This document shows positions 10,191 through 35,513 of a DNA stretch of 36,516 bases, piece by piece. The notes under the pieces are model-generated. The model saw nothing but the letters and a program-made list of their open reading frames with translations, had not been told where the DNA came from and searched no databases. Origin of the DNA: Amoeboradix gromovi (lineage: Eukaryota > Sanchytriomycota > Sanchytriomycetes > Sanchytriales > Sanchytriaceae); assembly GCA_018985225.1 (NCBI GenBank), contig JADGIF010000023.1, forward strand, positions 1 through 36,516, given 5' to 3'. The first letter of the stretch is position 1. Each line of letters opens with the position of its first letter. The translations under genes were made by a program, and so were the position numbers.

Positions 10191-11497
10191 TTAAAACAAA
10201 ATCAGTGCTACTATTAATCGAAAGAAATGATCAAAAACTTCTACATTGTTTTCTTGTGGCAATATTGTAGATGTTCCCGTCTCTGTTGGCAATTCTGAGT
10301 CATATCCGATATAAACATCTATATTAATCATCACATACCTTGTACTGATCCCATTCTATCATGCTCCTGTATTATCCCATTGCTAATTGGCCCGTACGCA
10401 TATATTAGATCGTTCTTGCCATCTTTTATTACGTTGCTAAACGACCCAATTGGTGTCATGGGCAGTGAAAACTTTACTATTCTTCTTCCATTTATTATGC
10501 TAGCCGATATCACATTTAGTCCTACATCAGTGACAATAGGAGGTCGTGCGTATCCAGAGGCCTTTCTAGCATTGACTAAAATATTACTGTTGATCAGTTC
10601 AAAAGTGATGATATCTGCAGAAGTCATACTACTGCCGAAACCAAGGCCAATCCAGTTATTGCTGTTTGATGCATCTAAGGTCAAATATATATTAGTGTTA
10701 TTGTAGTAGCCACTAACACACACAACGCTCATAAACAAACAAGTCTGACTAAGTGATCTGGTAGTCGTCCACCCAGTTAATGAATCTTTGTACGTTGAAG
10801 TGGACTGTTTGAAAACTGTAGTATCTGATAAATTAATTTTATCAGAACTTGACTGCAACGGTCCATAAGTTACGGATGTTTCACGGATTGCAGTTGTTCC
10901 GTTATGTAAATCAGATTTGTTGTATTCAGCTGTTCTATTGTATACTGTAGCTTCTGCATGCCCAGAATTCATGCTAGCTGAGATTCCTGTTTTTGAGGCA
11001 GAGACAGTGGTACTGGCAACAGTGGAATTTTCAGCTAATAGCAGACCATTAGGCTGAGCACCCTTTGCAGTGTGTTTGACAATGTTACCAAAACTGTCGA
11101 CATCACCATAACTCCAGATTAGGTTGTTTAAGCCCGCTTTTACTGTGTAAGTATATCCACCACTTCCGATCAAAGACCTAGATATATTGGCGTATCGTCT
11201 GGTATCATCAGAAAACATAGAATGTATAAGAAGGTCAGGGTTATTGATTACAGGTGGTCTAGTGTGAGTGATCTCAGTCTTTCTAGCTTTGATAAACAAT
11301 TGTCCTTGTACTTTTTCAAACGTTAAAATGTCTGCATCAGCCATTGAAGTTCCAAATCCAAGCCCTGTATAAGGATTCGAGTCAAGTGCATCTATAGACA
11401 AGTAAACCCTGCCTTGACTAATGTATCCATCAAGACAGATGCTATCGAAGGAATAACAAACTTTTGTTCCAAACATTATCCCAAGAAGTTGAAACAT
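10191..11497 (-). CDS. secreted two-DOMON protein with a 20-nt terminal intron
   Basis: The ATG at 11495-11497 is followed by a short hydrophobic start (MFQLLGIMFG). Two DOMON domains (about residues 15-140 and 250-385) flank a Ser/Thr/Asn-rich linker. Each has a YLxxDAxxSN segment, GLGFGxSM, ARKxxxxxRPP and a final YG...G.I..H. The Met after GLGFGxS and the late His occupy the places of the two haem ligands in cellobiose-dehydrogenase-type cytochrome DOMONs, so haem b binding is plausible (inference). The raw frame stops at 10331. Removing GTATGTGATGATTAATATAG (10319-10338, phase 1) extends it by 42 residues to a TAA at 10191-10193, ending in a hydrophobic tail (FFRLIVALILF) that could be a GPI-anchor signal. 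Exons are 10339-11497 and 10191-10318; 428 residues in total. Confidence 0.8.
10319..10338 (-). other. 20-nt spliceosomal-type intron in the DOMON gene
   Basis: Reads GTATGTGATGATTAATATAG on the minus strand: a consensus-like donor GTATGT, an ATTAAT branch-site-like core and a TAG acceptor. The unspliced frame hits TGA within it. The spliced frame stays open for 42 codons with a coherent hydrophobic C-terminus. Confidence 0.75.
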
Positions 11498-11678
11498 ATG
11501 ACCTAGTCGTATTAACTAGAAGCATGATCATCTGGGACTTCCTACAAACATCAAGCAGCTGGGTAGTTTGGTCCAAACTTGGAAATTCAAAGAACAAGCA
11601 TAATTATTGTAACACTCCAATCAGGCGTCCTTGTTTAGATATTCACTGAATCAAAATCTTGCAACTGCTTTTGAGATA

Positions 11679-12455
11679 ATGGATCGGCTAGCTTTACACA
11701 CTATTTCACCTCAGAACCTGGCGATTGATGCATTAAAATTTAGCTTGTTTAAACACGGAGAAAAACAAAGTACAAACTTCTTTGCATTAAGACTAGCCGT
11801 ATATTTTTATAAAAATTATAAAATTCCTAGTGAGAATGAGATAGTATTTGCCAGCAGTGCATACCGTAAAGTTCCGGTTGCAGCTGCGTATCTTACTAAC
11901 CTATTTATCAGCCACCTAGAACAAATTTCGGGAAAGAAGTACAAGGTCATAAAGCTTTACAGATGCAACTTGACAAAAGGCGATTTTAGCAAGCTGTCTA
12001 AAGAAGACCGAATGACTGTTATGCGGCAGACAGATTTAAAAATAAAGGGCAGATTTCACAAGAATAAGGAAGTTGTTGTTTTGGACGACATATTTATCAC
12101 AGGATCCCATGAACAGAGGATTAAAGAGCTTTTTAAAAAGGAGAAAGTAAAGAAGCTTACTTTTCTTTACCTGGTTCTTGCAACAAGTATTGGGCAAAAG
12201 ACTATTTTAGAAAGCACTTTGAATCATTCTTATATTAACAGTCTCGATAACTGGTTAAGTGTTGCAATGAATCAACCGTACATTAATGTTCGGTTTTTGA
12301 AATATTTGCTGCAAATTGACTCTGAGAATTACAAGAGTATCGTAGAAGTATTGGGAAAGAATATATGTAAAAAGTATATCAAGATAATTAGAAAAGATGG
12401 ATTGCAGCATCAGTTTCAATACAACTTCAATGCACTCAAAGAATTAGTTTACTGA
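11679..12455 (+). CDS. phosphoribosyltransferase-domain protein
   Basis: The frame is open from 11631, but the first ATG is at 11679, giving 258 residues. The key signature is VVVLDDIFITGSHEQRI (about residues 131-147): hydrophobic beta strand, two acidic residues, then the TGS loop. This is the PRPP-binding loop of type I phosphoribosyltransferases. The upstream segment (VFASSAYRKVPVAAAYLTN) and the R-x-N-L motif fit PRTase_3-like proteins, known in bacteria and scattered eukaryotes. The substrate cannot be told from sequence. It is divergent from the DOMON gene, with about 180 bp between the starts. No signal peptide; probably intracellular. Confidence 0.7.
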   Translation: MDRLALHTISPQNLAIDALKFSLFKHGEKQSTNFFALRLAVYFYKNYKIPSENEIVFASSAYRKVPVAAAYLTNLFISHLEQISGKKYKVIKLYRCNLTKGDFSKLSKEDRMTVMRQTDLKIKGRFHKNKEVVVLDDIFITGSHEQRIKELFKKEKVKKLTFLYLVLATSIGQKTILESTLNHSYINSLDNWLSVAMNQPYINVRFLKYLLQIDSENYKSIVEVLGKNICKKYIKIIRKDGLQHQFQYNFNALKELVY

Positions 12456-12843
12456 ATCTAATTGTTTTAATAAATTATTCGGGTTTTCAATTTTGATTAG
12501 CCGTATGTCAGTATGAAGACTTGAACTATCCCTAGTGCCAGGGATACAAAATGAATGAATTTTTACTTACCAAGCTGAAAACTCTCTGGAATTACCAGTC
12601 TTTTCCAGCTAGCTAAAAGCTGAGGATCTCGAACTAGTTTGTTTTTAGATTAAAAACTGTTCATACTCCACTGCAGACAGCTGGGATAAGCTCTATAATG
12701 TTAGGCCTGTATGTAAGGGTGAAATGGCATTAGATAAAGGAGAAATAGATATTGAAATAAGCTGAGAAAGCCCGTCAAAAGGTATCCGTAGGTAATAGAA
12801 ATATGCGACATTTCTACTTAACCAGTACCACCTCATAGCAATT
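12456..12843. other. intergenic stretch, nothing coding seen
   Basis: It contains a 7-bp hairpin (TATCCCT...AGGGATA) at 12527-12546 and otherwise no supported feature before the inverted-repeat element that begins at 12844. Confidence 0.4.
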
Positions 12844-13299
12844 GGGACACCAAATATAAAAACTAGACTAACTCGTTTTTAAAGGTGCTCCATACGGAGG
12901 AAATGCTATCAATAAACATTCTTCTTCTATTATACCAATTTTCTTTCATTACTTTCAATACCCTCTTCAAAATAAAACTAGATATGAGATCTTTGAGCAT
13001 CTAAGCAAAAGGTGCATTTTCTTGGACGGCATTCTTTTCTAGAGTCATTTTGTAATGTTATACTAACATCATTACTCTTGTCTATTTCTTTGAAGTGTAA
13101 TAGTGATATTTTATTTGAAATAAAGACTGGATGAAAGAGTAAGAGAATAGCTGTACAGAATATTTATTTTCCTTTTATACTCGTCAACTCCGCAACTAGC
13201 TGAATGTCCACTCGCCTCTTAAATCCATAAAGTGATAAAGCTGAAATAATGTTCCAAGTTGTTACAGAAAGTTAGTCCAGTTTTTATATTTGATGTCTC
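12844..13299 (-). mobile_element. MITE-like terminal-inverted-repeat element, copy A (inverted)
   Basis: The left end reads GGGACACCAAATATAAAAAC and continues TAGACTA. The reverse complement of the right end reads GAGACATCAAATATAAAAAC followed by TGGACTA. These are terminal inverted repeats of about 26 bp. Next to the left end is the complement of the GGAGCACCTCCTTTAAAA segment found near the right end of copies B and C, so copy A lies in the opposite orientation. The interior is partly diverged from B, but the AAAGGTGCATTTTCTTGGACG stretch (complement) is shared. No transposase frame; non-autonomous. Target-site duplications are not clear. Confidence 0.7.
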
Positions 13300-13476
13300 A
13301 TATGTATTAGATTGAAAAACTCTGCTACAAACTATTAGAATGGTAGTATTCAAATAATCGCCATAAGCTGTTATTCAACTTAAAAGAGGTGCTTATTTGA
13401 CAGTCCCGTGTGAAATTCTTAAGCAAGTTATCTTTTTTAAATCGCAAATATTTAAAAACTATTTACTATTTCGCAA

Positions 13477-14241
13477 TCACCATTTGTAGTCGCTCTTGAA
13501 ACCTAAGCATTCGTGTAACTTCACAAATTTATATCCTTTTGCTTTATATTGAGTAACTACAGTTTTCAAGTTTTTTAGAACCACACTGTGAATTTCATGA
13601 GTAAGAATAATGTGTCCGTCGTTTGGCTGACTTAATGGATCTAGCATATTCTGGACTGATTGAGCCTCAGTCAAGGTCTCAGGTACTTTCCAGTCATTGC
13701 TGTCTACATCCCATAGCACAATCTTCATTCCTAGGCGAGGCCCAGTAATAACTTTAGTTGCAGCTGGATCCAGTGATCCGTATGGAGGGCGCATAAATGA
13801 AGGCCATCTTCCAGTCTCTTTGTTGATTAGATTGTTTGCTTTCTTCACTTCTTGGTAGACTTGTTCATCAGATAAATCTTTTGCCAAGTCATGATGGGTG
13901 TAAGTATGACCGGCAACAGAATGTCCGGCATTGTAAATCTTTCTTACAAGGCCAGGGAACTTCTCCATTTGAGTACCGACAACAAAAAACGTAACCCTAA
14001 TGCCTTGGGTTTTGAAAAGATCCAAGTATGACTGAGTGTTGCCAGATGGACCATCATCTAAGGTCAGCGCTACCATATTCTTGTTTACGCATTTTGTATA
14101 AATAGCTTGAGAAACCGCGATTCTAGCAAATAGACTCAACATCTTGCTACTATTCAGCTTACCGCATTTAAACAAATCTCTGACTTGTACAGCTGAGTTG
14201 ATTGGTGGAAAGGAAATATTCTTGCTTGGCCATTTTACCAA
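13477..14241 (-). CDS. chitin deacetylase-like polysaccharide deacetylase, 5' end unresolved
   Basis: A NodB-homology (carbohydrate esterase 4) enzyme that would remove acetyl groups from chitin. The motifs are complete: VALTLDDGPS (catalytic base and metal Asp), AGHTYTHHDL (metal His pair), FMRPPYG, VLWDVDSNDW and IILTHEIH. The stop is at 13477-13479. The first in-frame ATG is at 14140-14142 (MLSLFARIAVSQ), weakly signal-like. The open frame continues to 14262 without another ATG, and the part upstream of that ATG (VKWPSKNISFPPINSAVQ) resembles the WP...PP..S region that precedes the catalytic domain in fungal chitin deacetylases. So either a 5' exon with the signal peptide is missing from my model or the gene has lost its start. 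The start coordinate given marks a TTG codon, not a claimed initiation site. Confidence 0.8.
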   Translation of the reverse strand: MVKWPSKNISFPPINSAVQVRDLFKCGKLNSSKMLSLFARIAVSQAIYTKCVNKNMVALTLDDGPSGNTQSYLDLFKTQGIRVTFFVVGTQMEKFPGLVRKIYNAGHSVAGHTYTHHDLAKDLSDEQVYQEVKKANNLINKETGRWPSFMRPPYGSLDPAATKVITGPRLGMKIVLWDVDSNDWKVPETLTEAQSVQNMLDPLSQPNDGHIILTHEIHSVVLKNLKTVVTQYKAKGYKFVKLHECLGFKSDYKW

Positions 14242-14276
14242 GTAAAAGTTTAATTTAAATTTTCAATTGGAAAAAC

Positions 14277-14506
14277 TCAGATTTGGGATTCCTTCTTCAG
14301 CTCTTAAATTAATTTTAACTTGTTTTTGGGTCCCTATTGGCATTGCTATAAAATTCGCGCTGTTGCGACATTTTAAAACCAGCTTGTAACTGCGGAAGAG
14401 CGTTGTCAGTATCTGTTAGTGATCTCTTTAGGTTAGCGTATTCTGGATTGGAAGGTTCGAGGCCATTTGTCAGAGATAAAAAGAAATAATACCGAGTTTT
14501 TATGAA
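14277..14506 (-). pseudogene. possible Sti1/Hop co-chaperone remnant
   Basis: The minus frame, open from 14506 without an ATG, reads LTNGLEPSNPEYANLKRSL and later FYSNANRDPKT. This resembles the end of the first TPR domain and the following DP motif of Sti1/Hop (a GL..P.N..L..GL helix and a DP-K/R-T signature). The raw frame stops at TAA. Skipping GTTAAAATTAATTTAAG (14303-14319, 17 nt) extends it to the TGA at 14277. Only about 70 residues are present, squeezed between the chitin deacetylase and the ATPase, so this is probably a relic. The family call is tentative. Confidence 0.3.
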
Positions 14507-14637
14507 TTAAAAAAGGTCTAACATGATTCATCATAGAAGTGGTAGAATTCATGTAATTACAATAATGTTTAGCCAATTAAAATTCACACTTTGTAGGAAA
14601 TATTTTCAAAATTTTTACCCCAATTTGATACAGTTTT

Positions 14638-18480: not shown

Positions 18481-19374
18481 ATGTTTGCATTAATTTCATT
18501 GATATTTGGGGCTCCTGTACTCTTAAGCTGTGGTACTGAATATACAGGAAAACTTTCATATGATCCCGACCATCCTTTCCAATGCATAGAGAGTAGGCTC
18601 AAACCTCTGGATGCACCTTCTATTGCGACCGACAGCAATTTTGGTACATCTTTAAAAAGGGTCATTGAAACTGCTGATCGCATCAATGCGGTACATCACA
18701 ATTCTATTACTGGACTAAAAGATGAAATTGCAGCACTTAAGTTGAAATTAGAGAACTGTATGAAGAGTGACGGGGATTGCATCACCATAATGGAAGAACT
18801 TCATTCAATGATGCGCGATATTAAATCCGCAATCGGAAGTAGAAATTTGTTGCTGGTTACATATAAAGGGGAAACATATAAATGGTCAGAAGTTGGCACT
18901 TATTTAACCAAGGGGCTGAACTCAATTCATAAGATCTTGGCAACTGAATATGCATCTGAATACATTTTAAACGACTGCATCACAACTATGAAGCCAAACG
19001 GTTTAACTTCATTAATCACTGCAATTAGCTACACAGATCATGAAAAAGACAGTTTAACAGATATAGCTGTCGAAGTTGCTCTTGAAAGCAGCAGCAATGT
19101 GGAACTGTTAAATGGCGTAGTTGCTCGAGTAAGTGAAAACAAAACGATAGAAAAGATTAAAGAATTGATTGAAATACTGGAGCAAATATTGATAACATGC
19201 ACCATGGTAGATGATTATTTTAATCTAAATAGTAGTTATTGTAAAGCTGGGTTAGAGGCACTGGAAAAATTGAAGAAGTTAATTCCAGATTCAGATTTCA
19301 AGCAATTAAACGAGTACATTGATGGCTTTAAAGAAACTCGAGGCAATAACAATAAACTGATTAGCTCTTATTAA
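18481..19374 (+). CDS. small secreted protein, lineage-specific family member 3
   Basis: Function unknown; 297 residues from a true ATG. The N-terminus MFALISLIFGAPVLLSCG is signal-peptide-like and resembles the starts at 716 and 4108. It has a C-x6-C pair (CMKSDGDC), then YKGETYKWSEV where the protein at 716 has FDGVEYDKNKV, and the C-terminal helix ends FKQLNEYIDGF, matching KKEIDEYISA and VNRYIDKVY. It carries more cysteines than its relatives (including LITC and SSYC near residues 239-258), so extra disulphides are likely. No known domain. It is separated from the other copies by about 14 kb and lies between the ATPase and MFE-2. Confidence 0.75.
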   Translation: MFALISLIFGAPVLLSCGTEYTGKLSYDPDHPFQCIESRLKPLDAPSIATDSNFGTSLKRVIETADRINAVHHNSITGLKDEIAALKLKLENCMKSDGDCITIMEELHSMMRDIKSAIGSRNLLLVTYKGETYKWSEVGTYLTKGLNSIHKILATEYASEYILNDCITTMKPNGLTSLITAISYTDHEKDSLTDIAVEVALESSSNVELLNGVVARVSENKTIEKIKELIEILEQILITCTMVDDYFNLNSSYCKAGLEALEKLKKLIPDSDFKQLNEYIDGFKETRGNNNKLISSY

Positions 19375-19603: not shown

Positions 19604-22600
19604 TTATAGCTTCCCTCTTAAACCTCCCAACAAGTCTCCTAATACCATGCTCATCATAATGTTACCACTGGCTTTCAATTTCCCACTCATAAATGCTTCC
19701 TGACCACTTATCTTCCCACTAGCCATCTTAATAAAATCTTCATCTCCAATTTTTATTAAACAGTCGTTCTTTCTATTTCCCTGCACAATTTTCAATTCTT
19801 TTAAATCGATTACCCATTCTTCCTTGTTATTTGGGGTGGATATCTCTAATTGGAATACACCACCTTTGCTCTGATATTTCTTCTTTTGGTCTGCTTGCAT
19901 CCCTTGAAGGTACGCATCCAGCTTTGACAGAACTGCACTAGATTTGCTAGCAGTTGTGCTTGCTGCTTTCGATGTGGCACCTGCCTTGGTCTTTTCCAAC
20001 TTTGCACAGGCATTCATCACTACTATTTCGTTTCTCTCCTTACATTTACACACAAATACCACCAAATCACCTTCAAGCCACATCTCAACTACCAGTGTCT
20101 CACCAGGGTACACATGTTTGCTCAATCTACCCATAATCATGTTGAATGGACCGTATGCATCCATTATTGATTTACCACATATCCCAAATGTACACATACC
20201 GTGTAATATAGGCTTGTCAAATCCACCCATTTTAGCAAATGACGAGTCAATATGCATTGGGTTTAAATCTTTGCTGCTTGCTCTGAACAGCAGTGCCTGG
20301 TTATCGGTGGTTTTGTTAATAATCACCTTGTCGGGTTGTCTGCTCATAACACGAGTCAGCACATCGGTACTCACACCAATAGATGGTATATTTGCTGACT
20401 GGATACCTTGCTTAACAGAGCAGTTGCGAATAAAGAGAGTGATTTCACCATGCACAATTTGACCACGTTTATTGCTGCCCTTGACGATTAATCGGATAAC
20501 AAGAGAATTCTTAATTGACTTAATGCTGCCAACACTGGATTCAAATTGAATTACATCCTCAACTAGCAATGGAAGATTCAACTTGACAAGCTGCTCGCCG
20601 TGCACAAGATTCATCAAACTGAAATCATTGCAAATTGAATCAAAGGGGAATACAGTAGCAGAATGGACTATTGCACTGTTAATAAACGTAGGGATTATTT
20701 GGAATGAATCGGATTGCTCGTAGATGTAGTGTAGCTGGGTAGCTGTGCAGTTCAGGGATATGTTATACAAGATTATATCAGCCTGATTATAAGAATAAGA
20801 ATGAGAGGATCCAACAGATGATGCTTTGGAATTTGAGGATTTTGGAGAACTCAAATTACTGAAATTGTTGAAGATCTCCTGATAGCTTTCTTGTACGCTA
20901 CCCGGATGATGATACTTGCTAAAATCTGTGATTTCACGCCATTTGTTATAAACATCCTCAACATCAACAGATTTAAATCCAACACCTTTAGATCTTTGCC
21001 ATTCGCAAGATTGAACAATCCCGCAGCCAGCCTCATAGACTTTGTTTGTGATTGATGTAGAAGTTAACGCAACAACTAGTGGACTAACATATTCTGGCTT
21101 CAGCTGCTCAAGGACATCATTGGGCATTATCGTGGATGTAATGCGGGTGCCTGCAGTTGGAATAACTACATTCACAGTGATATTCTTAGATTTCCCTTCT
21201 ATGGCCAAAGTTTTACTAAAACCAATGATTGCTGACTTTGCGCTACCGTAATTGCACGAACCAAAATTTCCATACAGCGCAATACTGGAGGATGTGTTAA
21301 TAATACGTCCATACTTTTGCTTGACCATATAAGGCCACGCAGCATGGCACATTGCAAATGTGCCATTTAAATGTACTTTGTGGATCAACAGCCAGTCCTC
21401 TGCAGTCATTTTAGACATAGATACATCTCTTAGGATACCTGCATTGTTTATCAATATATCTACTCTACCCCATTTTTTGATTGCGGATTCCACTACCATT
21501 TGACCGTCAACTACGCTGTTGTAGTTAGGAATAGCACTTCCACCCTTGCTGATAATATCCTGCACAACTTTCTCAGCTGCATTAGTGCTATTACCGACGC
21601 CATGCGTGTTGCCACCCAAATCATTTACAACAACGTTGCACTTTAAATAAGCAAACAAAAGAGCATACTGACGACCCAGACCATTACCTGCACCTGTGAC
21701 TATCACTACCTTGTCTTTCAAATTTATTGCCGGTCCCTTAGGATTGGTGATAGACTTGCAAGCCTCCAAGTATGATAGTGGGTTCAAATCTGCCATAGAG
21801 GATGGCGATTGCGGGTTTGACATGTTGTGAATCTGGTCTAGCTTATCAAGAACCGCGCTTGGAGTAAAGGTAGAGTCCAACTTGAACAGCTGGCCTTGTG
21901 AGCGAGACCATCTAACTTTAGCGATAAAACCAGCTCCGACCTCGAACAAGCTGCCATTCTCAGTAACAGAGGGATGAGTAAGGTATAGAACCAATGGAGC
22001 AACAAATTCAGGTTTAAGATTTGCTAGTACATCAGGGGGAAGGACAGATTCTGTCATTTTAGATTTAGCTATTGGGGCAATCGTGTTAACTAATACATTG
22101 TTACGTTCACCTTCTTTAGACAAAGAGAGAGTGAAGCCATGTAGACCTAGTTTGGCAGCAGAATAATTAGCTTGGCCATAATTACCGTAAATACCTGCTG
22201 CACTGGCAGTGTTGATTATACGGCCAAATTTCTGTTTGTTGAAGATATCCCAGCAAGCCTTGGTCATTTTAAAACTGCCATGTAGATGAACATCTAGGAC
22301 TTGCTGCCATTGTTGTTCTGTCATTTTAATAAAACTAGAATCACGAAGTATACCAGCATTATTTATAAGAATATCAACTCTACCGAACGCTTTTAGAGCC
22401 GTCTGCACAATTTCTGTGCCCTGCTCACAGCTGTGTTTGTCAGCAACAGCAATCCCACCCATTCTCTGAATCTCTAAAACGACTTGCTCAGGAGCGCCAA
22501 GATCATTAACTACAATCTTAGCGCCTCTTTTTGCATATTCTAAAGCGTATACCCTACCTAGACCACCTCCTGCACCAGTGATGATAACTACAAGATTGTT

Positions 22601-22636
22601 GAAATCAAGTTTCTGATTAGACATTGTTTTGGACAT
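19604..22636 (-). CDS. FOX2: peroxisomal multifunctional enzyme type 2 (hydratase/3-hydroxyacyl-CoA dehydrogenase)
   Basis: Carries out the second and third steps of peroxisomal beta-oxidation, turning trans-2-enoyl-CoA into 3-ketoacyl-CoA through a (3R)-hydroxy intermediate. I choose the ATG at 22634-22636 (MSKTMSNQKLDF); about 1010 residues. There are two SDR domains, each with a GxxxGxG nucleotide site (ITGAGGGLGR, VTGAGNGLGR) and a Y-x3-K catalytic pair (YSAAK, YGSAK). A hotdog hydratase-2 domain follows, with KDLNPMHID and PILHGMCTFG. An SCP2-like sterol-carrier domain (about 895-1005) ends the protein. The last residues are GKL, close to but not a consensus PTS1 such as SKL or AKL. The inverted-repeat element B ends only 25 bp upstream of the start codon. 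Confidence 0.92.
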   Translation of the reverse strand: MSKTMSNQKLDFNNLVVIITGAGGGLGRVYALEYAKRGAKIVVNDLGAPEQVVLEIQRMGGIAVADKHSCEQGTEIVQTALKAFGRVDILINNAGILRDSSFIKMTEQQWQQVLDVHLHGSFKMTKACWDIFNKQKFGRIINTASAAGIYGNYGQANYSAAKLGLHGFTLSLSKEGERNNVLVNTIAPIAKSKMTESVLPPDVLANLKPEFVAPLVLYLTHPSVTENGSLFEVGAGFIAKVRWSRSQGQLFKLDSTFTPSAVLDKLDQIHNMSNPQSPSSMADLNPLSYLEACKSITNPKGPAINLKDKVVIVTGAGNGLGRQYALLFAYLKCNVVVNDLGGNTHGVGNSTNAAEKVVQDIISKGGSAIPNYNSVVDGQMVVESAIKKWGRVDILINNAGILRDVSMSKMTAEDWLLIHKVHLNGTFAMCHAAWPYMVKQKYGRIINTSSSIALYGNFGSCNYGSAKSAIIGFSKTLAIEGKSKNITVNVVIPTAGTRITSTIMPNDVLEQLKPEYVSPLVVALTSTSITNKVYEAGCGIVQSCEWQRSKGVGFKSVDVEDVYNKWREITDFSKYHHPGSVQESYQEIFNNFSNLSSPKSSNSKASSVGSSHSYSYNQADIILYNISLNCTATQLHYIYEQSDSFQIIPTFINSAIVHSATVFPFDSICNDFSLMNLVHGEQLVKLNLPLLVEDVIQFESSVGSIKSIKNSLVIRLIVKGSNKRGQIVHGEITLFIRNCSVKQGIQSANIPSIGVSTDVLTRVMSRQPDKVIINKTTDNQALLFRASSKDLNPMHIDSSFAKMGGFDKPILHGMCTFGICGKSIMDAYGPFNMIMGRLSKHVYPGETLVVEMWLEGDLVVFVCKCKERNEIVVMNACAKLEKTKAGATSKAASTTASKSSAVLSKLDAYLQGMQADQKKKYQSKGGVFQLEISTPNNKEEWVIDLKELKIVQGNRKNDCLIKIGDEDFIKMASGKISGQEAFMSGKLKASGNIMMSMVLGDLLGGLRGKL

Positions 22637-22660
22637 TCTCCGTTGCAAAAAGTAACAAGT

Positions 22661-23070
22661 GGGACATCAAATATAAAAACTAGACCTACTTTCTGAAATA
22701 GTTTGAATCATTATTTCAAGTGCGTATTAACCAGTAATAAACTAAATTAAATCAATCTGATTATTTCAAGTAAATTATTTTAGTATAAAAACTTTTCATC
22801 CATCAAAATCTTAGACACAATGATTAATAAGAAGAAGAGAAACGGAAAATAAGTTATACGAGAATGGAACAGATAAAGACTATCGTCTAAGAAAATGCAC
22901 CTTTTGTATTTGAAAGAGATAGTGGGTCATCTTATTTTATTTTAAAGAGGGAATGACATTAATGAAAGAAAATTGGTTTGAAAGAAGAAGGACTTTTATA
23001 ATAATAGTATTTCCTCCTTATGGAGCACCTCCTTTAAAATTACAGTCTAGTTTTATATTTCGAGTTCCAC
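22661..23070 (+). mobile_element. MITE-like terminal-inverted-repeat element, copy B
   Basis: The left end reads GGGACATCAAATATAAAAAC. The reverse complement of the right end reads GTGGAACTCGAAATATAAAA followed by CTAGAC. The interior closely matches copy C (shared AAGTAAATTATTTTAGTATA, ATGACATTAATGAAAGAAAA, and GGAGCACCTCCTTTAAAA near the right end). There is no coding capacity of its own. It lies between the MFE-2 start codon (25 bp) and the Crinkler-like gene (about 90 bp), so it occupies most of the shared divergent promoter region. Confidence 0.75.
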
Positions 23071-26430: not shown

Positions 26431-26898
26431 AATTTACTCCTCGTTAAAAGTCCTGATTTCCGAGAAAATCGAGAATTTCCACAGAGAAACTAATGCTAGA
26501 TGCTCCGTTACAGTGATTGCTCACGCTTTCACTACCCTGAGGCGGGATTGAATAAGGATGCATATACTTGATGTATATGTTCCTTGCTTGCATATGGTCT
26601 CATCTATCTTCAAATGACAATTGGTACAGGTTCAGGTTTCTAAATTGGTTCTCTTTAGAGTGCCACAAATTGTACATGGCATCGAATTTCCGTGTTTGAA
26701 CTAGCTTATCAGTCTGAGACGAATCTATGCTGTACCTGCTAGTTATTTCTTTAGATTTGACATATTCAGGATTACATCTATTAATTCCATTTACCATTTG
26801 CGAAAAGGAAGAACATCCAGTATTTAAGCTATTGGAAAAGTCATAAATTATACAAAAATGCATACAAATTCGCGATAAATCATTTATTCAAGAAAACA
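26431..26898 (-). pseudogene. Fanzor 3' fragment, copy 2
   Basis: A diverged duplicate of 4659-5106 in the same relative layout. The minus strand reads MPCTICGTLKRTNLET, a TGA at 26632-26634, then TCTNCHLK. A frame change then leads to RDHMQARNIYIKYMHP. This copy keeps the intact first zinc-ribbon half that is damaged in copy 1, whereas RuvC-III is better kept in copy 1. The TGA between the two ribbon halves is shared by both copies. It is convergent with the unrelated Fanzor relic ending at 26204. A 7-bp hairpin (GCTACCT...AGGTAGC) lies just outside at 26916-26934. Confidence 0.6.
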
Positions 26899-27099
26899 AT
26901 CGAGCCATAGTTTTTGCTACCTATCCGAGGTAGCCTTTGGTATCGCTGTTATTTATCAGCCTTTTTTAGTCCCAATACGTTATTGTAGTCTCTTTAAATG
27001 CCTGTTCTAACTTGCTTCAGTTATCTTAGTATTTACCCGGGCTCCCGCTAGTTTTTCTAGCAATTGGTTTTTATACTTAAAATCTCCTTGTTACAATTA

Positions 27100-29266
27100 A
27101 TGGGATTCAACAAATTTTACCAGTTTGGAATCACTTTTGAGCCCAATTTTCTTGATCGCACAAACAACTACGATATTTACGAGTGGCGCCAATTAAAACA
27201 AGATTACATCAATCGTATGAATATTTTCCAAAATGAAATTAATGGTTCCACTCCCCATCCCTCCCCATCTGTTGAGGTTGAAAAGTCTTTCATTTCAAAC
27301 AACGATTCCATCATTTTGCCCAATGTTGTACCTGTTCCGTCCAATCAATTCCACAGCATATCTGTTCAAACTTCATTTATTAAATCTCCAATAAAAGATA
27401 CGGATAACACCATAGGTTGTGCGGTTGATTCTGAAAATGTATCTGAGATTGATTACAGCCTCTTGGTTTATAAGGAGGCGTTTTTAAAATCTTCCAAATT
27501 AAACGATTCACCTGATGCATCTGAAATACGCCTGTTCGCTGATGACGAATCACCATCTCCTATTATCAGTCCTCCAATAAATGTGCCTGCTTCCTCTCTT
27601 GCACTTCCATTTACTTCTGACCCTCAGGAGTTATTGAAGTCCGATTCTGTAGAAAACGAAAATACAAATCCTAACGATAAGCGAGACATTTCTTTCAATG
27701 AGCAGTCACCTTCTGGTCCATTCAAGTCTCATGTTCTAAACCGGATAGCTACAATTGTCGGACCTTCCCAGTCAACTCGTGTTCCTATTGATCAATCATC
27801 AAATGCTTCATCATTACGTAATGCACCACTAGATGTTCCGTTTGATCAATCAAATCCTACTGATATAATGTCTACTTCTTCTGAAATTTCTCTCAACGAT
27901 TACCTGTCTGAACTAAAACAGTTGATTTCTTATAATCAGGATCTTATGAATAAACCACTTGATATAATCCCCAACCATCATATTCCCAAAATTGTGGAAT
28001 ACTCTACCAGCGAGTTAGATGACTCACCTGATACACCCAAAAGGAGAGTCAGAAACAGGTATAGAAAGCCGGTTGAGAAATCTGCAGGTGATGAGCAGTT
28101 GGATGAACACAAAATTCTGGAAGTTGCGACTGCAAAGTCAATACTTGCTGCAGAATCTGCACTTAACTCACCAATACCCTCACCTCGTTTAAACTATTCC
28201 TCTACACCCCGTACTAGATCTTCATCGCGTATCGCCAATAGGCCAATTACACCCCCATCTGCTATATCTTTAAAGAGACCTTCTTCTGCAAGTAGAAAGC
28301 ACAAAAAGACTAAGCTGTTAGATCTCGATGAAGCTGATCATCAGAATGTTGATGTCGATGAAGCCGATCATCAGAATGTTCATGACGATGCCCATGATGT
28401 CGTTGTAGCTGAACTGGAACCGGATGAGATATCTGAACAACAGTTGGATAATATGAATGAAATCGATAGAGCTGATGACAATGCTGTAGACAATGAGAAT
28501 GGCAATTTACTGGATGATTTGCTCAGCAAACATGAAGCCCCGTTGGATATTCCAGATATCGAGGAATACAACGAGATACAGCAACCGACACCTAAGCCAA
28601 GGAAACAAGCCAAAGTGCCTAGAAAGAGGGGAGTGAAAAATACAAAATCAACACCTGTGGCCCAAACCGGTGCAATAGGATTGAGAACTAGGAAAAAGAA
28701 CTTGAGAAAGTCATTTATCGACAATGAATGGGTAGACGCAGATAACATCAGTAACAAACAAATGAATGTTGTAAGCAAATGTGATGACGGGGAGTACATA
28801 GTAATTGAAGAGATAGAAAAGACTATACATGGTGTCAAGAGAGACAAGCATAAAAAAAGTGCTAGCAGGAAAAGCGTTGATGTTAAGTCAGCAAAAAAGG
28901 ATAATAAAGATACTGCAGTTCCGTTTAAAATTGCGAATTCAATCGTAAAAAAACCGACTGTAAAGCAAGTAAAGCAATCCACTTCTGATGTATTCATTGA
29001 TTTAAAGGAACAGGAAAATTATCATATTGGATACATAGGACTCACAAAGGGTGTGGAGTTGAATGGGAAAGAGATAGGAAATGCTGTGTATATAGTAAGT
29101 AGTGGAAGAGTAACATTTAATCGGAACAATGAAGAAGATTGTATCGGACAAGCTAAAGATGTGCTGATTGTGAATAAAGGTAACAATAATTAATTTAGGA
29201 AGCAACTACTCCATAACGTGTGAGAGTGCTGTTAGTATACTACAAGTACGAATAATATATGATTAG
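27100..29266 (+). CDS. CENP-C/Mif2-like inner kinetochore protein with a 19-nt intron
   Basis: CENP-C proteins bind the CENP-A nucleosome and dimerise through a C-terminal cupin. The first ATG, at 27100 (MGFNKFYQFGITFEP), gives a 715-residue spliced product (exons 27100-29179 and 29199-29266). The middle is Ser/Pro/Asp-rich and disordered, with basic patches and a 30-bp tandem duplication (DEADHQNV twice, 28328-28387). GLRTRKKNLRKSF then IDNEWVD may be a degenerate CENP-C motif. The end (YHIGYIGLTKGVELNGKEIG, then YIVSSGRVTFN) fits the Mif2 cupin. The raw frame stops after NKGNNN. Splicing gives NKGSNYSITCESAVSILQVR, which matches the last cupin strands (G-N-x-Y-S-I...L-F-x-Q) and ends IIYD. 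The assignment rests on by-eye motifs. Confidence 0.6.
29180..29198 (+). other. 19-nt spliceosomal-type intron in the CENP-C-like gene
   Basis: GTAACAATAATTAATTTAG, phase 1. The unspliced frame meets TAA inside it. The spliced frame completes the C-terminal cupin strands and ends at a TAG at 29264-29266. The last 12 nt are identical to the intron at 35408-35426. Confidence 0.8.
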
Positions 29267-29471
29267 CAAGATAAATAACAACAGAGCACCAGAGTAACTA
29301 ATGATGTTTGTAATAAACTACAGTATGTGTATTATATGCAGCCCAAGATTATTAAGCTGCTCCACTATGCTGATTGTGTGGCCATTAGTATTCAGATTTA
29401 AATAAAACGTTTTTTTGCTTTTAAACTGTCTTGCCGGATTTCAGTAGAAAAAGTCATCGAATAGAACAGTC

Positions 29472-29573: not shown

Positions 29574-31800
29574 TCAGCTTCTATATAACATTGGCAGTAA
29601 GAATGAGGTTGAATGGTACTTGAATCATTTCAGCAGTGCAGATCAATTTGCTGTAATCAAAGTTGGTGGCGGCGTGCTGGAGCAGAACTTGGATGAGCTA
29701 TCCACTGCATTGGTTTTTCTTCAAAATGTTGGTTTATATCCTATAGTAGTTCATGGAAGTGGTCCTCAGATGAATCTTGAACTTGATAGGTTGAATATTA
29801 AAAAACATTATGAGAATGGGATCCGAGTAACGGATCTAGACACTTTAAAAGTAGCAAAACGTCTTTTTGTTAAGCAGAATATAAAGCTTTGTAATGCTAT
29901 TGAAAAGCTCGGCACTCGTACCCGTCCATTCTATTGTGGGATATTTGAAGCCACTTATCTTGATAAGACTAAATATGGATATGTTGGGAATATCACTAAT
30001 GTAAATAAGCAGCTTTTGAAAAGTGCTATTCATCATGGTGCCTTGCCTATCTTGACCAGCTTAGCTGAGACTGAAACCGGTCAGACTCTAAATATCAATG
30101 CTGACGTAGCAGCTGTGGAACTAGCTAAAGCTTTGAAACCTCTTAAAATTGTTTTTATAAATGAATCCGGTGGCATGTTTGACAACCACAACAATAAAAT
30201 CAACGTTATAAACATGGATCAAGAATATTTGCACTACATGCAATTAGATTGGGTAAAGTACGGGACTCGTCTTAAATTGGAGCAATTTAACAATCTTTTG
30301 CTTCAACTACCGCGATCTTCCTCCATTTCTATAACTAAAGCTAACCAACTTCAGCGTGAGTTGTTCACTCACAGGGGTGCAGGCACATTGATCCGTCGTG
30401 GCTTTAAGATCAACAAGCACACTATGTCTACAGTAGATTTGGCTCTTCTAAAATCCAAGTTGTCTAATTATTATTTATTCAAAAAGATAACGCCTGAGTG
30501 CTTTTTTGGATTATTAAACAACTGTTCGATTTACTGCGATGAACAGTTAGATTGCATAGCTATTGTGCTTCTGATGGACGATATTCCTACGATGGTTACT
30601 TTTCATTCTAATAACAATGCTCGGTTGCATGATGTCGATGAGTTGATTATGGACAGAGTGTTGTCTGATTATCCTAGTCTAATGTGGGTCATCAATATTG
30701 ATGACCCCAACAAGTTATGGCATTTTAAACAGGCTCAGGGTACTTTGAAATGCGAGGATGACATTGTTTGTTGGATTGATAATGATTTGCAGCATGTTAC
30801 ACAGCAATACAAGAAATATAAGCAATACTTTAAGAGACAGCATCATACCTTGGCTAGACGTGGCCATTCTTCTAGCCCTAAGTTCTCCGTTGGTATTGTT
30901 GGTGCTAGGGGACATGTTGGTAACGAATTGCTCAAACTACTCGACAATCACTCATGCTGTGAAGTCTCTGTTGTAGGCAGCAGAAGTGTCGGTATAGTGG
31001 AGCAGTACACTCGCAGCAGGGTGGAATATACGCATGTTAAACCAAGCAATATTAACGATTACAATGTAGATGTATGGATACTAGCACTACCTAACGGACA
31101 CGCGCAACCTTACGTAGATGCTCTGAACACGAATAATGGTTCTGAGCGCCCTCGCATAATAGATTTATCAGCCGATTATAGATTTAACAAAGAATGGACT
31201 TATGGATTACCAGAACTAAATAGAAGTAAGATCAGATCTTCCAGGCTGATAAGTAACCCAGGGTGCTATGCTACAGCATGCCAGTTAGGAATAGCGCCCC
31301 TAATTACAAGGCTGAAAAGTTGCAACATATTTGGAGTCAGTGGATACAGTGGAGCAGGGCACATAAACGATAAAGTGATACATGGAATCGAGGAAGATAA
31401 TATACAAGCATACAAATTGCAGCAACATATACATGAGAGGGAAGTTAAAGAACATACTAGGGAAGTTACATTCACACCACATATTGCTAGCCACTATAGA
31501 GGAATACTGGCGACGTTACAGATACGACTAAACGACAATAGCAATAACAAGCAGTTACTGGACATATACAGGGATTATTATAAAAATGAAGGATTGATAA
31601 AGATTAAAGAAGAAATACCACGATTACGAGATATCATGAATAAAGATCATGTAGAAATTGGAGGATTTAGTGCGCATGGCAATTCTGGAGTGATTGTATG
31701 TACTTTGGATAACTTGTTAAAAGGTGCAGCTACACAATGCATACAGAATTTGAATTTAATAATGGGAGTACCAGAATATACTGGGATATTGGATAAATAA
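29500..31800 (+). CDS. ARG5,6: ARG5,6 polyprotein: acetylglutamate kinase / N-acetyl-gamma-glutamyl-phosphate reductase
   Basis: Precursor of two mitochondrial enzymes for steps two and three of arginine/ornithine synthesis, normally cut apart after import. The ATG at 29500 gives 766 residues. An ATG at 29533 (MLSRISRLSTST) gives a better mitochondrial presequence and may be the real start. Kinase motifs: VIKVGGGVL, IVVHGSGPQMN, LNINADVAAVELA and THRGAGTLI. A DUF619/NAT-type domain (about 320-450; WHFKQAQGTL) is retained, as in yeast Arg5,6. The reductase part opens with VGIVGARGHVGNELLKLL (nucleotide binding) and has the catalytic Cys589 in SNPGCYAT and FTPHIASHYRGI. The linker of about 455-465 (RRGHSSS) is a plausible processing site. 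Complete by comparison with the yeast layout. Confidence 0.95.
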   Translation: MILLNPSKHNYMLSRISRLSTSTINQLLYNIGSKNEVEWYLNHFSSADQFAVIKVGGGVLEQNLDELSTALVFLQNVGLYPIVVHGSGPQMNLELDRLNIKKHYENGIRVTDLDTLKVAKRLFVKQNIKLCNAIEKLGTRTRPFYCGIFEATYLDKTKYGYVGNITNVNKQLLKSAIHHGALPILTSLAETETGQTLNINADVAAVELAKALKPLKIVFINESGGMFDNHNNKINVINMDQEYLHYMQLDWVKYGTRLKLEQFNNLLLQLPRSSSISITKANQLQRELFTHRGAGTLIRRGFKINKHTMSTVDLALLKSKLSNYYLFKKITPECFFGLLNNCSIYCDEQLDCIAIVLLMDDIPTMVTFHSNNNARLHDVDELIMDRVLSDYPSLMWVINIDDPNKLWHFKQAQGTLKCEDDIVCWIDNDLQHVTQQYKKYKQYFKRQHHTLARRGHSSSPKFSVGIVGARGHVGNELLKLLDNHSCCEVSVVGSRSVGIVEQYTRSRVEYTHVKPSNINDYNVDVWILALPNGHAQPYVDALNTNNGSERPRIIDLSADYRFNKEWTYGLPELNRSKIRSSRLISNPGCYATACQLGIAPLITRLKSCNIFGVSGYSGAGHINDKVIHGIEEDNIQAYKLQQHIHEREVKEHTREVTFTPHIASHYRGILATLQIRLNDNSNNKQLLDIYRDYYKNEGLIKIKEEIPRLRDIMNKDHVEIGGFSAHGNSGVIVCTLDNLLKGAATQCIQNLNLIMGVPEYTGILDK

Positions 31801-32302
31801 ACTGCTTATATTAAAATGGCTAGGCTTCTTTTGGTGTTTTAATGAACATTTGGCTTAAATTTCAAACTTTAATCACTGAAACTTAAGGATTGTAGATTAG
31901 TGTTTCTGTAGCTAATACTGTGGATATGAATGATATAGCAGTAAAACTTTAATATCAGTACAAGGCTATTTCAAGTATCTGTAACATAGATCTCACTCAA
32001 CGAGTCTAACCAGTCGCTATGCCCACAATCTTGTTTTGAATTGATGATTTGGACATAAAACAAATACTCGCGACTCACATGTAAGATAGAAATTTCCGAG
32101 AGAGAAAAATAAGACTCGAAAAAAAGAAAAAAAAAGAAACAAAAGAAAGAAAAGAAAAGTAAGTAATCCAAGCTTTAGCATAAATTAGCTATTACGTTGA
32201 CGTTTTCCTGATATTTGCTATTTTCAGAAAAATTGCAGGTGTACAAAGGTCTGACTGTCTGAGATAGCATTTAAATAGGAACTAGAGCCATTCAGATACT
32301 AA
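31801..32302. other. intergenic stretch with a polypurine tract
   Basis: A nearly pure A/G run on the plus strand spans about 32093-32160. A minus-strand frame over it (31971-32171) lacks an ATG, and its Phe-rich start is just this tract. Its remainder (REYLFYVQIINSKQDC, SDWLDSLSEI) is protein-like but not assignable. Confidence 0.4.
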
Positions 32303-32497
32303 ATGACGACTTTGAAAATTAATACTAATGAAGAAATCATGACAGAGATTAGAGGCTATTACGATGATGATGAGGTGCATAGTTTAAGAGAGTTGATATC
32401 TGATTTAGAACAAGACTTGTTTGACATTAACGTAAGATTAAACTATTTGAGATCGTTGGAAAAGAAGAAGCAGCGCAAGCTGAACAAATCCAAATAA
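32303..32497 (+). CDS. small coiled-coil protein
   Basis: 64 residues from a true ATG. An acidic helix with leucine heptads (LRELISDLEQDLFDINVRL) ends in a basic tail (EKKKQRKLNKSK). Its size and composition resemble small subunits of coiled-coil complexes, but no family is recognised. It lies 50 bp upstream of the membrane-protein pair. Confidence 0.5.
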   Translation: MTTLKINTNEEIMTEIRGYYDDDEVHSLRELISDLEQDLFDINVRLNYLRSLEKKKQRKLNKSK

Positions 32498-32547
32498 ATA
32501 AAAATCAATTTAAGCGTTACTAGACTAATGGCTAATTAAGCCACTTT

Positions 32548-33210
32548 ATGTTTTGGATTGCACTAGACTTAATTAGTGCTCAGACTACTATCGATACTAT
32601 TAACAACTCTGATACCACCAGTTTAAGCAGTATTATCTCAAGCGGATATGAAGCAACCTCTTATGGATATCTGACTGCAAACACGTCTTTGAGTGATTTT
32701 GTGACATCTAAAGAAATTAAAGGGAAGATAAGCAATTATAAAATTAGCACAAACAATGAGAATATTAGCGATAACAAGAATGTCAGCGATAACGAGAGTA
32801 AGACGCTTTTACTTCAAGCAGAGAGAACCAGATCGGAAGAAACGACTGAGTTTATGTACCCATTTACAGCTTCACACGAAATTGGAAGCCGATATGACTT
32901 TGGTGGAATAACAACTGCATCTCTAAAGTCTTCTAAAATTTATACGAATACAGTTTTAAATTATGAAATATCAAGCACTGATCAAGCCAGTTCATTTCAG
33001 ACAGTAGAATCGGTATCTGTTGACATTTCAAACTTGCCTAATTTTCCAGAGCCAAAGAAATTCACTTCCTTATTTAGTAATTTGGAGGGATTGTTTGTGT
33101 TTATAATTTTTTTGGCTATTATCATTTTACTGTTTGTAATTGTTGGTTGCAAGTTATGTTTCCCAAAAAGGCGTTCTGAAGTTAAATTCGCTAGCCACGA
33201 TATGTTGTAA
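32548..33210 (+). CDS. Ser/Thr-rich single-pass membrane protein, short
   Basis: 220 residues from a true ATG. A hydrophobic start (MFWIALDLISAQT) serves as signal peptide. About 160 Ser/Thr/Asn-rich residues follow, likely an O-glycosylated ectodomain. One strong transmembrane segment (FVFIIFLAIIILLFVIVGC, about 178-197) is followed by a short basic tail (KLCFPKRRSEVKFASHDML). The layout is that of fungal cell-surface sensors or mucin-like proteins. It is in tandem with, and organised like, the longer protein that follows, but there is no clear sequence identity. Ligand and role unknown. Confidence 0.65.
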   Translation: MFWIALDLISAQTTIDTINNSDTTSLSSIISSGYEATSYGYLTANTSLSDFVTSKEIKGKISNYKISTNNENISDNKNVSDNESKTLLLQAERTRSEETTEFMYPFTASHEIGSRYDFGGITTASLKSSKIYTNTVLNYEISSTDQASSFQTVESVSVDISNLPNFPEPKKFTSLFSNLEGLFVFIIFLAIIILLFVIVGCKLCFPKRRSEVKFASHDML

Positions 33211-33364
33211 TTTAACCAACAAAGGCTATTAGGATTATATCTCAGAGTGAAATTCGATTCTTATGCATTTGAATAAATACTTTTAATTCAAATCTCAGTT
33301 GACTTTGTTTTAGAATTTTAGTATATTAATGGGTTGAAAATTTTCATGGCTTGACTTTCGTCAG

Positions 33365-35513
33365 ATGTTGGTACATGTACTTGGTGCCATTGCACAAGCT
33401 ACAGATTGCACGAATATCGAATCTGTTTTGAGCTTTAACTCTTTCGAGGACTTGACAGAAACAATCATGTTAAATGTCTGTCAAAATACCGCGATAAACA
33501 CGTCCTTTATATGGTCTGAAGTGCCGGAATCCACAGATTTTGATGCTTCAGAAACATACACCACTTTTGGACATACTGAATACGTAGAGAGTGAGTCGGC
33601 TGAACTCACAGGAATTAATACGAATGAGACCGAGTTTCTCTCGTCAGAATATATGACATACACCCAGGAACCCCAAGTAGCTTCGACAAATGACAAGAAT
33701 TTTGATTCCTCATATATCACAATTGATGCAACAACTCTAGAAAGCTCGTTAGAACTGTCTACCGCTGAGTTGGCATCTATTACATCTACAGCATTAACCA
33801 ATTTGTCTTCAGATACAACAGTGGAGCTGATTCTTTCTACTGAGGACCTTATTTCAGAGAGTTCTGATTTTTCTACAACAATTTTAGATACAAGCCAAAT
33901 ATCTAGTACTGTGGAACTTATTTCAGAAATTTCCGACTTTTCTACAACTGTTTTAGAAACCAGCCAAATATCTAGTACTGTGGAACTTATTTCAGAAATT
34001 TCCGACTTTTCTACAACTGTTTTAGAAACCAGCCAAATATCTAGTACTGTGGAACTTATTTCAGAAAGTTCTGACTTTTCTACAACTTTTTTAGAAACCA
34101 GCCAAACATATAGTACAAGTGCAAGTTCAACAGAAACCTCTGAAAACGAGACAAGTGCTTACGAAGATATTTTTTCAATCATGCAGAGTGAGTCCACATA
34201 CTCTCATTTATTTAGTAGCATATATACCGTACAGAATGTGTTTGAAAGCATAACTAGATCGACTATAGCAACGGACGAGTACGGTTCAAATCTTGTTGGT
34301 GTATCATTGTATTTCACAGCAGAGGGCAACAAATCAAAATTTACAACAATAACTCAACCAGCACTAGATTACTTAACTTCAGTTTCTAACTCAGACATGT
34401 ACGAATCATCAAGTTACCTATCAGAAAATGCAAAACCTTCAACTTTGTCTTTATCATCTAAAACTGTTACATGGAACTCAATATCGCAACAAATAGATAC
34501 AGAATCTTACATTGACATATATTCTGAGTTTTCAACTAAATCGATGTTATCAAATAGCATAGAATCATTAGGCACCAAGAGAGACTCAATTTACATAACA
34601 TTATCTATGTTGGAAACACCAATTGAGAGCGATAAAACATCAGCATTTGCATCTTCAAGGCGATTGATAATTTTGGAGTCAGGAAATATTGCAACAAGCT
34701 CATCACACACGGTGGCAGCTGCGTTATCCTCAGGGCATGTAATTGTGAACACAGTAACCCCAGTCGCAACTGTCTCATTAGCCCAAAGTTTAGCAAAAAC
34801 AGTTTTGAGATCAGACGAAGAAAACATTATACAGTACTACATATCTACTGTATCTGCTAGCGACCATTCACAAATTGTTTCCAGTTCTACAGCTACTGAA
34901 CAATCAGCGACCACCACTACGCCCAACAATCCTGATGTAAATTCACTGTTGAGTACACCAGGGGGAATCACTGGTCTCGTAATCATAATAATAGTAATAT
35001 TGTTGCTGGTAGCAGCACTTTTTTATAAGCTTTTTACTTCCGGTAAGAAAAACAGAATCGCACTACTTGACGAAGAAATAAGTGATTACGGCGAAGAAAG
35101 TACAATGGCAAATAGGGCCCTTTCACCAGTTTCGCCAAATAATCAAACCGGATTTACAACTTCAGGGCTATCTAAAAACATCGAACCTCAGTCTCCTCAA
35201 CAGAAGCAAAGTAGTTTAGTAATCGAAAGTTTGGGAGCATCCAATTTATTCAAACAAAAGAATCGCAAAAAGTCTGATGCGGCCGCTTTAGAATATACCG
35301 CTCCCCCTAGACGTGAAAGTGTGAATAGCGCTGTAAGAAACAAGATGATGGAAGAGCAATTCAATGCCAACGCATTTCTTAATGTAGTTCGAGAGTTGGA
35401 CAAGAGAGTATTCCTAATTAATTTAGATTCAATCTCAATCTCCAAGTGCCACATCTGAGTTTTCAGAATCTTCAATGCCATCATCTGCGTTCCAGAGGAA
35501 TCCTCAATCCTAA
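33365..35513 (+). CDS. Ser/Thr-rich single-pass membrane protein with tandem repeats and a 19-nt intron
   Basis: The ATG at 33365 begins a signal-peptide-like MLVHVLGAIAQATDC. About 520 Ser/Thr-rich residues follow, including four 23-residue repeats (VELISEISDFSTTVLETSQI, then SST; 33842-34117). One transmembrane segment (TGLVIIIIVILLLVAALFY, about 538-556) leads to a cytoplasmic tail of about 150 residues, beginning with basic residues and an acidic LLDEEISDYGEE. The raw frame ends at 35458 with an isoleucine-rich oddity. Removing GTATTCCTAATTAATTTAG (35408-35426, phase 0) gives DKRIQSQSPSATSEFSES and a Ser/Pro-rich end at a TAA, 35511-35513. Exons are 33365-35407 and 35427-35513; 709 residues. 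Probably a surface adhesin or sensor; no named domain. Confidence 0.7.
33842..34117 (+). repeat. four in-frame 69-bp tandem repeats
   Basis: The unit encodes 23 residues. Copies 2 and 3 are identical or nearly so; copies 1 and 4 are more diverged. The high identity of the inner pair suggests recent expansion and likely length polymorphism. Confidence 0.85.
35408..35426 (+). other. 19-nt spliceosomal-type intron in the Ser/Thr-rich membrane protein gene
   Basis: GTATTCCTAATTAATTTAG, phase 0. The sequence has no in-frame stop within it (it is 18 nt plus one, shifting the frame). The unspliced frame ends 51 nt downstream of the start of the intron. The spliced frame keeps the Ser/Gln/Pro bias of the tail for 28 more residues. 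It shares TAATTAATTTAG with the intron at 29180-29198. Confidence 0.7.

Follow-up and report, generated by a model that had tools for sequence, protein, structure and literature searches.

The ultrashort introns closest in size to those considered here are found in the nucleomorph of Bigelowiella natans, where, in the excerpts of the literature on which this account draws, they average 19.1 nucleotides (nt) with a donor that is largely GT(A) (PMC2483917); the range given for chlorarachniophyte nucleomorphs is 18-21 nt (PMC10245619). The same excerpts describe nucleomorph introns as devoid of a branch-point signature, and mention little donor signal past GT(A), and again no branch-point signature, for some lineages with introns of about 20 nt (PMC2483917). 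Among fungi, the shortest mean length named in the cited part of one intron survey is 63 base pairs (PMC8476143). Here we analyse a window that comprises the entire contig JADGIF010000023.1 of Amoeboradix gromovi (36,516 bases), from an assembly of 6.78 megabases in 366 contigs, in which a first-pass annotation had proposed three introns of 19-20 nt (10319-10338 on the minus strand, 29180-29198 and 35408-35426 on the plus strand). The three are very probably real and appear to be part of a family that counts several hundred predicted introns, mostly of 19-20 nt. These resemble the introns of B. natans in size and in their donor, but their branch motif ranks among the most prominent signals and they reside in a fungal nucleus.

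A genome-wide class of predicted introns of 19-20 nt

The three stretches lie exactly where they had been placed, the two on the plus strand share their final 12 nt, and the removal of each opens the C-terminus that had been predicted for its gene (Table 1). On the minus strand, the unspliced frame stops after 2 codons and the exact 20-mer is present in a single copy genome-wide. The pattern GTAN{6,7}ATTAATNTAG occurs three times in the window, compared to a mean of 0.04 expected under a second-order Markov model, and none of 200 simulations reached three occurrences. The whole-genome motif scan that the first-pass annotation had proposed revealed that the class is spread over the genome as predicted 19-20-nt introns of spliceosomal type with a common 3' core. 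The pattern GTAN{7,8}YTAAYNTAG, which admits only 19-20 nt, returned 416 matches against 85 for its reversed control, and GTAN{5,12}ATTAATNTAG returned 120 against 36 for the backwards pattern, reversed patterns being a rough yardstick rather than an exact one. Although the latter pattern allows lengths of 18-25 nt, the first 100 listed of its 120 matches include 42 that measure 19 nt and 33 that measure 20 nt.

A pattern-independent sample, consisting of the window and 20 stretches from contigs C1-C10 (235,453 bases in total), outlined the same class through its reading frames. Of 32 sites of the form GT..YTRAYNYAG with a length of 19-20 nt, 17 connect a long frame upstream to a long frame downstream, all 17 of them starting with GTA, whereas such support was found for only 3 of 60 sites at 15-18 and 23-26 nt (Fisher p 2e-7) and for 2 of 19 at 21-22 nt. 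No peak at 19-20 nt was present for the donor triplets GTG, GTT, GTC, GCA, CTA or ATA. Frame support was also detected in 22 of the 30 GTAN{5,12}ATTAATNTAG matches that were fetched. Extrapolation of the sample density (20 introns per 235 kilobases, kb) yields about 576 introns genome-wide, and the excess of the 19-20-nt pattern over its control (416 minus 85) about 330 of the strictest form. A motif-free scan for GT-AG pairs, which produced 1751 candidates in 454 clusters, was dropped, the matches listed being mostly noise.

Forty predicted introns were catalogued under a slightly different rule, which required YTAAYNYAG, a length of 18-22 nt, a GT donor and at least 8 codons on each side. 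Twenty derive from the 235-kb sample (3 in the window and 17 outside it) and 20 from loci matching GTAN{5,12}ATTAATNTAG, two of the latter being other sites within those loci. Lengths of 19, 20, 21 and 22 nt were presented by 26, 10, 2 and 2 catalogued introns, respectively (13, 5, 1 and 1 of those in the sample; 11, 4, 1 and 1 of those in the sample but outside the window). Nearly all of the introns detected fall within a few nucleotides of each other and below 25 nt, the scans having also covered 15-26 nt and, within the limits described below, sizes of as much as 80 nt. Even though only GT had been required, the GTA start reported for the three window introns was observed in all 40 (and in all 20 from the sample). 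Beyond it, the donor signal consists of a preference for T at positions +5 (T in 27 of 40, G in 1) and +6 (T in 28), defining a GTANTT consensus. The acceptor is TAG in 39 cases and CAG in one, the free base ahead of TAG being T in 20 introns, G in 11, A in 9 and C in none. Phases 0, 1 and 2 are represented by 15, 16 and 9 introns, and 31 of the 40 contain an in-frame stop.

The shared core put forward by the first-pass annotation does exist, but its form is AYTAAYNTAG and not ATTAATWTAG. ATTAAT is merely the commonest variant, present in 7 of the 20 sample introns, with ACTAAT in 6, other instances of YTAAY in 7 and A in the first place in 16; it ends 2 nt before the acceptor AG, and not 4 nt as had been stated. 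While YTAAY is present throughout the catalogue by selection, its association with the 19-20-nt length and with frame support is a result. When offsets of 0-9 between branch motif and acceptor were allowed, all 15 distinct GTA introns that have frame support and measure 19-22 nt showed an offset of 1, a single free base between YTAAY and YAG; one of them also fits a second, overlapping motif with an offset of 5. The branch motif sits at a single distance from AG, the type of fixed spacing seen in Yarrowia. A minor-class assignment was discarded: U12-type introns are defined by an RTATCCTTT donor and a TCCTTAAC branch, neither of which matches the GTANTT and AYTAAY elements found here.

The search required YTRAY near the acceptor and frames of some length, and longer introns, or introns of another kind, could escape it. 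The short introns might hence be the visible part of a wider range of lengths, accompanied by longer introns of different architecture. We deem this unlikely. GTA candidates longer than 25 nt (offset up to 9, length up to 80 nt) numbered 14, no more than in the GCA, CTA and ATA controls; six of them use the 3' end of a short intron, and the frame that encodes the Prp8 domain is open for 2233 codons. A point in favour of such longer introns within the window is the 31-nt GT-AG stretch at 248-278, in a frame at the contig end with 88 open codons before and 82 after, which may be an intron of another kind. This stretch had been listed as a further candidate of the class, together with 14303-14319 and 29298-29321, but none of the three ends in YTAAYNYAG. 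No pair of long frames surrounds 14303-14319 (at best 62 and 8 codons on the GT-AG strand), and the frames flanking 29298-29321 reach at best 39 and 19 codons.

Restoration of conserved proteins by the predicted splicing

Seven of the 26 spliced genes, selected for apparent conservation or for their location in the window, were searched against Pfam in spliced and unspliced form, and a gain across the junction was observed in six. Splicing raised the match to Histone (H3) from 107.2 to 145.2 bits, to FBPase_C from 116.6 to 145.8, to Actin (in an actin-like protein) from 171.4 to 267.5, to MFS_1 from 81.2 to 192.5 and to Nuc_sug_transp from 297.9 to 377.3, and the BBP-type KH domain of SF1 scored 65.7 bits with no match at all in the unspliced form. 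The seventh pair, the end of the CENP-C-like protein encoded in the window, returned no Pfam match at 0.001 in either form. A Rab protein, an EF-Tu-like GTPase, the DOMON protein of the window, a MyTH4 protein and an aminotransferase were searched in spliced form only, which provides no test of the junction. In histone H3, splicing joins DTNLAA to IHAKRVT, and in the Rab protein it adds a tail bearing two cysteines. Gene prediction programs that assume introns of a greater minimum length would truncate proteins at C-termini of this kind.

The SF1 junction falls inside the KH domain. At the protein level, the predicted SF1 of a relative with 75% identity continues through this junction. The SF1 gene (locus L030) carries a 19-nt predicted intron of its own, and as SF1 is the branch-binding protein, expression of the gene would require the very protein that it encodes. 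The combination of GT-AG ends and frame restoration in conserved proteins points to the U2-type class, and we consider it highly likely that the stretches are U2-type spliceosomal introns that have shrunk to near the physical minimum.

Splicing machinery and competing explanations

The first-pass annotation had suggested inspecting U1, U2 and the branch-binding components for adaptations. U2 small nuclear RNA was identified with 102.1 bits and an intact GUAGUA, U6 with 65.1 bits and an intact ACAGAGA, and Prp8 through a PROCN domain match of 657.6 bits; SF1 is also encoded in the genome. For Prp18, a single match of 20.4 bits was obtained, against a cut-off of 32.5, inside a frame of 1102 codons. 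Slu7 had no genome match by profile or by vertebrate protein query; empty search answers are not proof of absence, and this one is uninterpretable because the positive control, the broadly conserved factor Yju2, likewise went unmatched. The machinery is hence only partly documented, with several splicing factors not found.

The missing Yju2 match is one of several observations that weigh against the interpretation as a class of spliceosomal introns. U1, unlike U2 and SF1, was not matched in the genome by its Rfam model, which may not suit fungal U1. None of the three window introns crosses a strongly scoring domain, and the end of the CENP-C-like protein, searched at a threshold of 10, matched a cupin domain in its spliced form only, with a score of 13 bits that does not reach the cut-off; it had no credible match in the PDB. 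In the sample, 15 of the 32 motif sites of 19-20 nt lacked frame support, as did 5 of the 22 that start with GTA, one of which passes the looser catalogue rule. Among the 30 GTAN{5,12}ATTAATNTAG matches that were fetched, support was absent from 8, comprising all four of 18, 23 or 24 nt and four of 19-21 nt, and 9 of the 40 catalogued introns contain no in-frame stop. Finally, the wide pattern GTAN{5,30}YTAAYNYAG, which covers 17-42 nt, is not enriched as a whole, with 1398 matches against 1425 for the reversed control; the excess over the reversed control is confined to short lengths.

Part of this evidence is what would be expected if the stretches were chance AT-rich matches located beside ordinary stops, with short, meaningless frames behind them. 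The lack of excess for the wide pattern would fit such an origin, as would the fact that about one fifth of the 416 matches is expected from the reversed control, and the window tails span only 21-41 codons and are poor in known domains. Chance does not, however, account for the peak in length and frame support at 19-20 nt, nor for the restored domains of H3, FBPase, the actin-like protein, SF1 and the transporters elsewhere in the genome, and we regard it as scarcely credible.

The undetected U1 and splicing factors would instead suit stretches that are retained in the mRNA and dealt with in another manner, such as translational bypassing or a non-spliceosomal cut-and-ligate process. The GT-AG ends, the YTAAY motif at a fixed place and the presence of U2, U6, Prp8 and SF1 in the genome are in keeping with a spliceosome, and the many copies across unrelated housekeeping genes are unlike bypass elements, of which we know only hairpin-containing cases. 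Bypassing or its non-spliceosomal equivalent is thus very improbable, and spliceosomal removal remains the interpretation adopted in what follows.

Proposed mechanism of recognition

In the introns examined, the spacing within the 3' composite element AYTAAY-N-TAG is invariant. The branch motif AYTAAY appears able to pair with the GUAGUA of U2, and U2 with this unchanged sequence would be expected to do so, any U in place of C in the motif being accommodated by a G-U pair. The second A of YTAAY would then be the branch adenosine, which in TTAAT lies five bases before the last intron base; the first-pass annotation had given about 6-8 nt from the 3' splice site. The acceptor would be the first YAG after this adenosine, fixed in position, and the donor a GTA located 13-14 nt upstream of it, so that excision would release a lariat ring of 14-15 nt with a 5-nt tail. 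The G at donor position +5 normally pairs with U6, and its rarity here is in keeping with a recognition process led by the 3' side.

Because the branch-acceptor distance is so short, the second-step factors Slu7 and Prp18 are predicted to be unnecessary. According to the cited part of a study in yeast, Slu7 and Prp18 are important for efficient splicing at branch-acceptor distances of at least 12 nt, and Prp22 at distances of at least 21 (PMC11651659). A broader scenario, in which the whole intron set of a fungal nucleus has collapsed to 19-22 nt, with the composite branch-acceptor element read from the 3' side, the donor chosen by distance, Slu7 and Prp18 shed, and the introns concentrated at 3' ends in opposition to the 5' bias seen in other intron-poor genomes, is possible but is put forward as a tentative proposal.

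Position of the introns within genes

All three window introns lie at the 3' end of their coding regions, as had been pointed out, but this is a wider trend and not a peculiarity of these genes. Measured from the first ATG of the frame, with the same frame rule applied to both sides, the median relative position of the 32 catalogued introns with complete frames is 0.84. The last third of the gene harbours 26 of the 32 and the first third none (binomial p about 4e-8 and 4e-6), and the bias persists when the three window introns are left out (23 of 29 in the last third, p 5e-7, and none in the first) and among sample introns outside the window (11 of 14 in the last third). A possible 5' intron at L037, with 7 codons before it and 66 after, falls below the rule of at least 8 codons. 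A missed splice near the end of a gene would cost just a C-terminal tail, which is, we conjecture, the reason for this placement. In the cited part of the literature, intron-poor genomes are usually 5'-biased, and the placement observed here is the reverse of the bias cited there for intron loss driven by reverse transcripts (PMC532390).

Genes and other features of the window

Table 1. Predicted introns and flanking exons in the window (coordinates on the contig; codons are those open before and after the splice).
Feature	Position	Strand	Phase	Codons before	Codons after	Remarks
Predicted intron, DOMON-domain gene	10319..10338	-	1	392	41	20 nt, GTATGTGATGATTAATATAG
Exon 1, DOMON-domain protein	10339..11497	-				428 amino acids (aa) spliced; PF03351, 61.4 bits, residues 265-369
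Exon 2, DOMON-domain protein	10191..10318	-				Added tail of 42 residues, hydrophobic stretch at end
Predicted intron, CENP-C/Mif2-like gene (tentative)	29180..29198	+	1	706	21	19 nt, GTAACAATAATTAATTTAG
Exon 1, CENP-C-like protein (tentative)	27100..29179	+				715 aa spliced
Exon 2, CENP-C-like protein (tentative)	29199..29266	+				
Predicted intron, Ser/Thr-rich membrane protein gene	35408..35426	+	0	690	28	19 nt, GTATTCCTAATTAATTTAG
Exon 1, mucin-like protein	33365..35407	+				709 aa spliced; one hydrophobic span
Exon 2, mucin-like protein	35427..35513	+				Tail rich in Ser, Pro and Gln

The Pfam match of the DOMON protein provides no test of the splice, as it precedes the junction at residue 386. 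The gene at 27100-29266 is one that we take, tentatively, to encode a CENP-C/Mif2 homolog, an identity that Pfam and PDB searches could not confirm. In-frame tandem repeats of 69 nt at 33838-34182 give rise to a Ser/Thr-rich repeat in exon 1 of the mucin-like membrane protein.

Elsewhere in the window, 19604-22636 encodes a multifunctional enzyme that combines two domains of the short-chain dehydrogenase type and one hydratase domain with SCP2 at its C-terminus. Four open reading frames with a hydrophobic leader and no Pfam match above cut-off (716-1558, 1898-3187, 3221-4108 and 18481-19374) look like lineage-specific secreted proteins. Dispersed AT-rich repeats, 75-92% alike over about 390 nt, are present in direct orientation at 22654-23043 and 35683-36055 and inverted at 12883-13305, and are possibly non-autonomous mobile elements. 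Decayed repeated frames with a zinc-finger-like end were observed at 4655-4910 and 26434-26688, and also at 8813-9529 of locus L002, where they include an LDPGVRKFL stretch; they presumably resemble TnpB/Fanzor-type transposon nucleases. An Rfam scan of the window returned no match.

Host lineage and comparison with known systems

Protein comparisons suggest that the host is probably an early-diverging, reduced fungus. Among the best 120 hits listed for SF1 and for the fused ARG5,6 enzyme, those to named organisms are all fungal, with 35-48% identity, and are preceded in each case by two ENA proteins (75 and 79% identity for SF1, 62 and 58% for ARG5,6). In a tree of 34 ARG5,6 proteins, the root of which is arbitrary, the window copy and the two ENA copies, all three of unusual residue composition, form a fully supported, long-branched group, a result that places the host only broadly. 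Sanchytrid genomes are likewise small (10.5 and 11.2 Mb) and similar in GC content (36.3 and 34.6%; PMC8371127, in the part cited). The literature listings searched contained no description of introns of 19-20 nt as a genome-wide class in any fungus; as they do not cover most subscription papers or any bioRxiv preprints, this is weak evidence of novelty.

Several features of the putative class are shared, in the excerpts cited, with systems from other lineages. Stentor coeruleus has a similarly narrow length class with the branch A 5 nt before the end in about 96% of introns, the same 5-nt tail predicted here, but its 8806 introns measure 15-16 nt and present a weak branch consensus and a 5' bias, as opposed to the 19-20 nt, strong consensus and 3' bias described above (PMC9505925). 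The reduced genome of the parasite Mikrocytos mackini contains 224 introns of conserved sequence, which at 16-17 nt are shorter than those reported here and belong to Rhizaria (PMC10245619). Anchoring of the branch motif relative to AG has been described at 2 nt in Yarrowia and at 4 nt in Trichomonas and Giardia (PMC2483917), and by that measure the AYTAAY-NT-AG spacing equals that of Yarrowia, whose introns nevertheless differ in their median length of 204 nt and mostly ACTAAC branch (PMC2483917). The shortest Trichomonas intron is 23 nt long (PMC12316389). Encephalitozoon cuniculi, a fungal relative with a reduced genome, offers a conserved CTAAYTT branch (PMC2483917), but its 37 introns span 22-76 nt and its donor is relatively strict (PMC3629993).

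Ultrashort introns are thus known elsewhere, and what is surprising here is that introns of nucleomorph size occur in a fungal nucleus together with a rigid branch-acceptor element and a 3' bias. The joint occurrence of nucleomorph-size introns and a rigid branch-acceptor element implies that an intron can be of minimal length and still possess a strong branch motif. Being nearer to yeast than ciliates or Rhizaria are, this fungal system bears on how little intron a spliceosome needs and on which second-step factors are dispensable.

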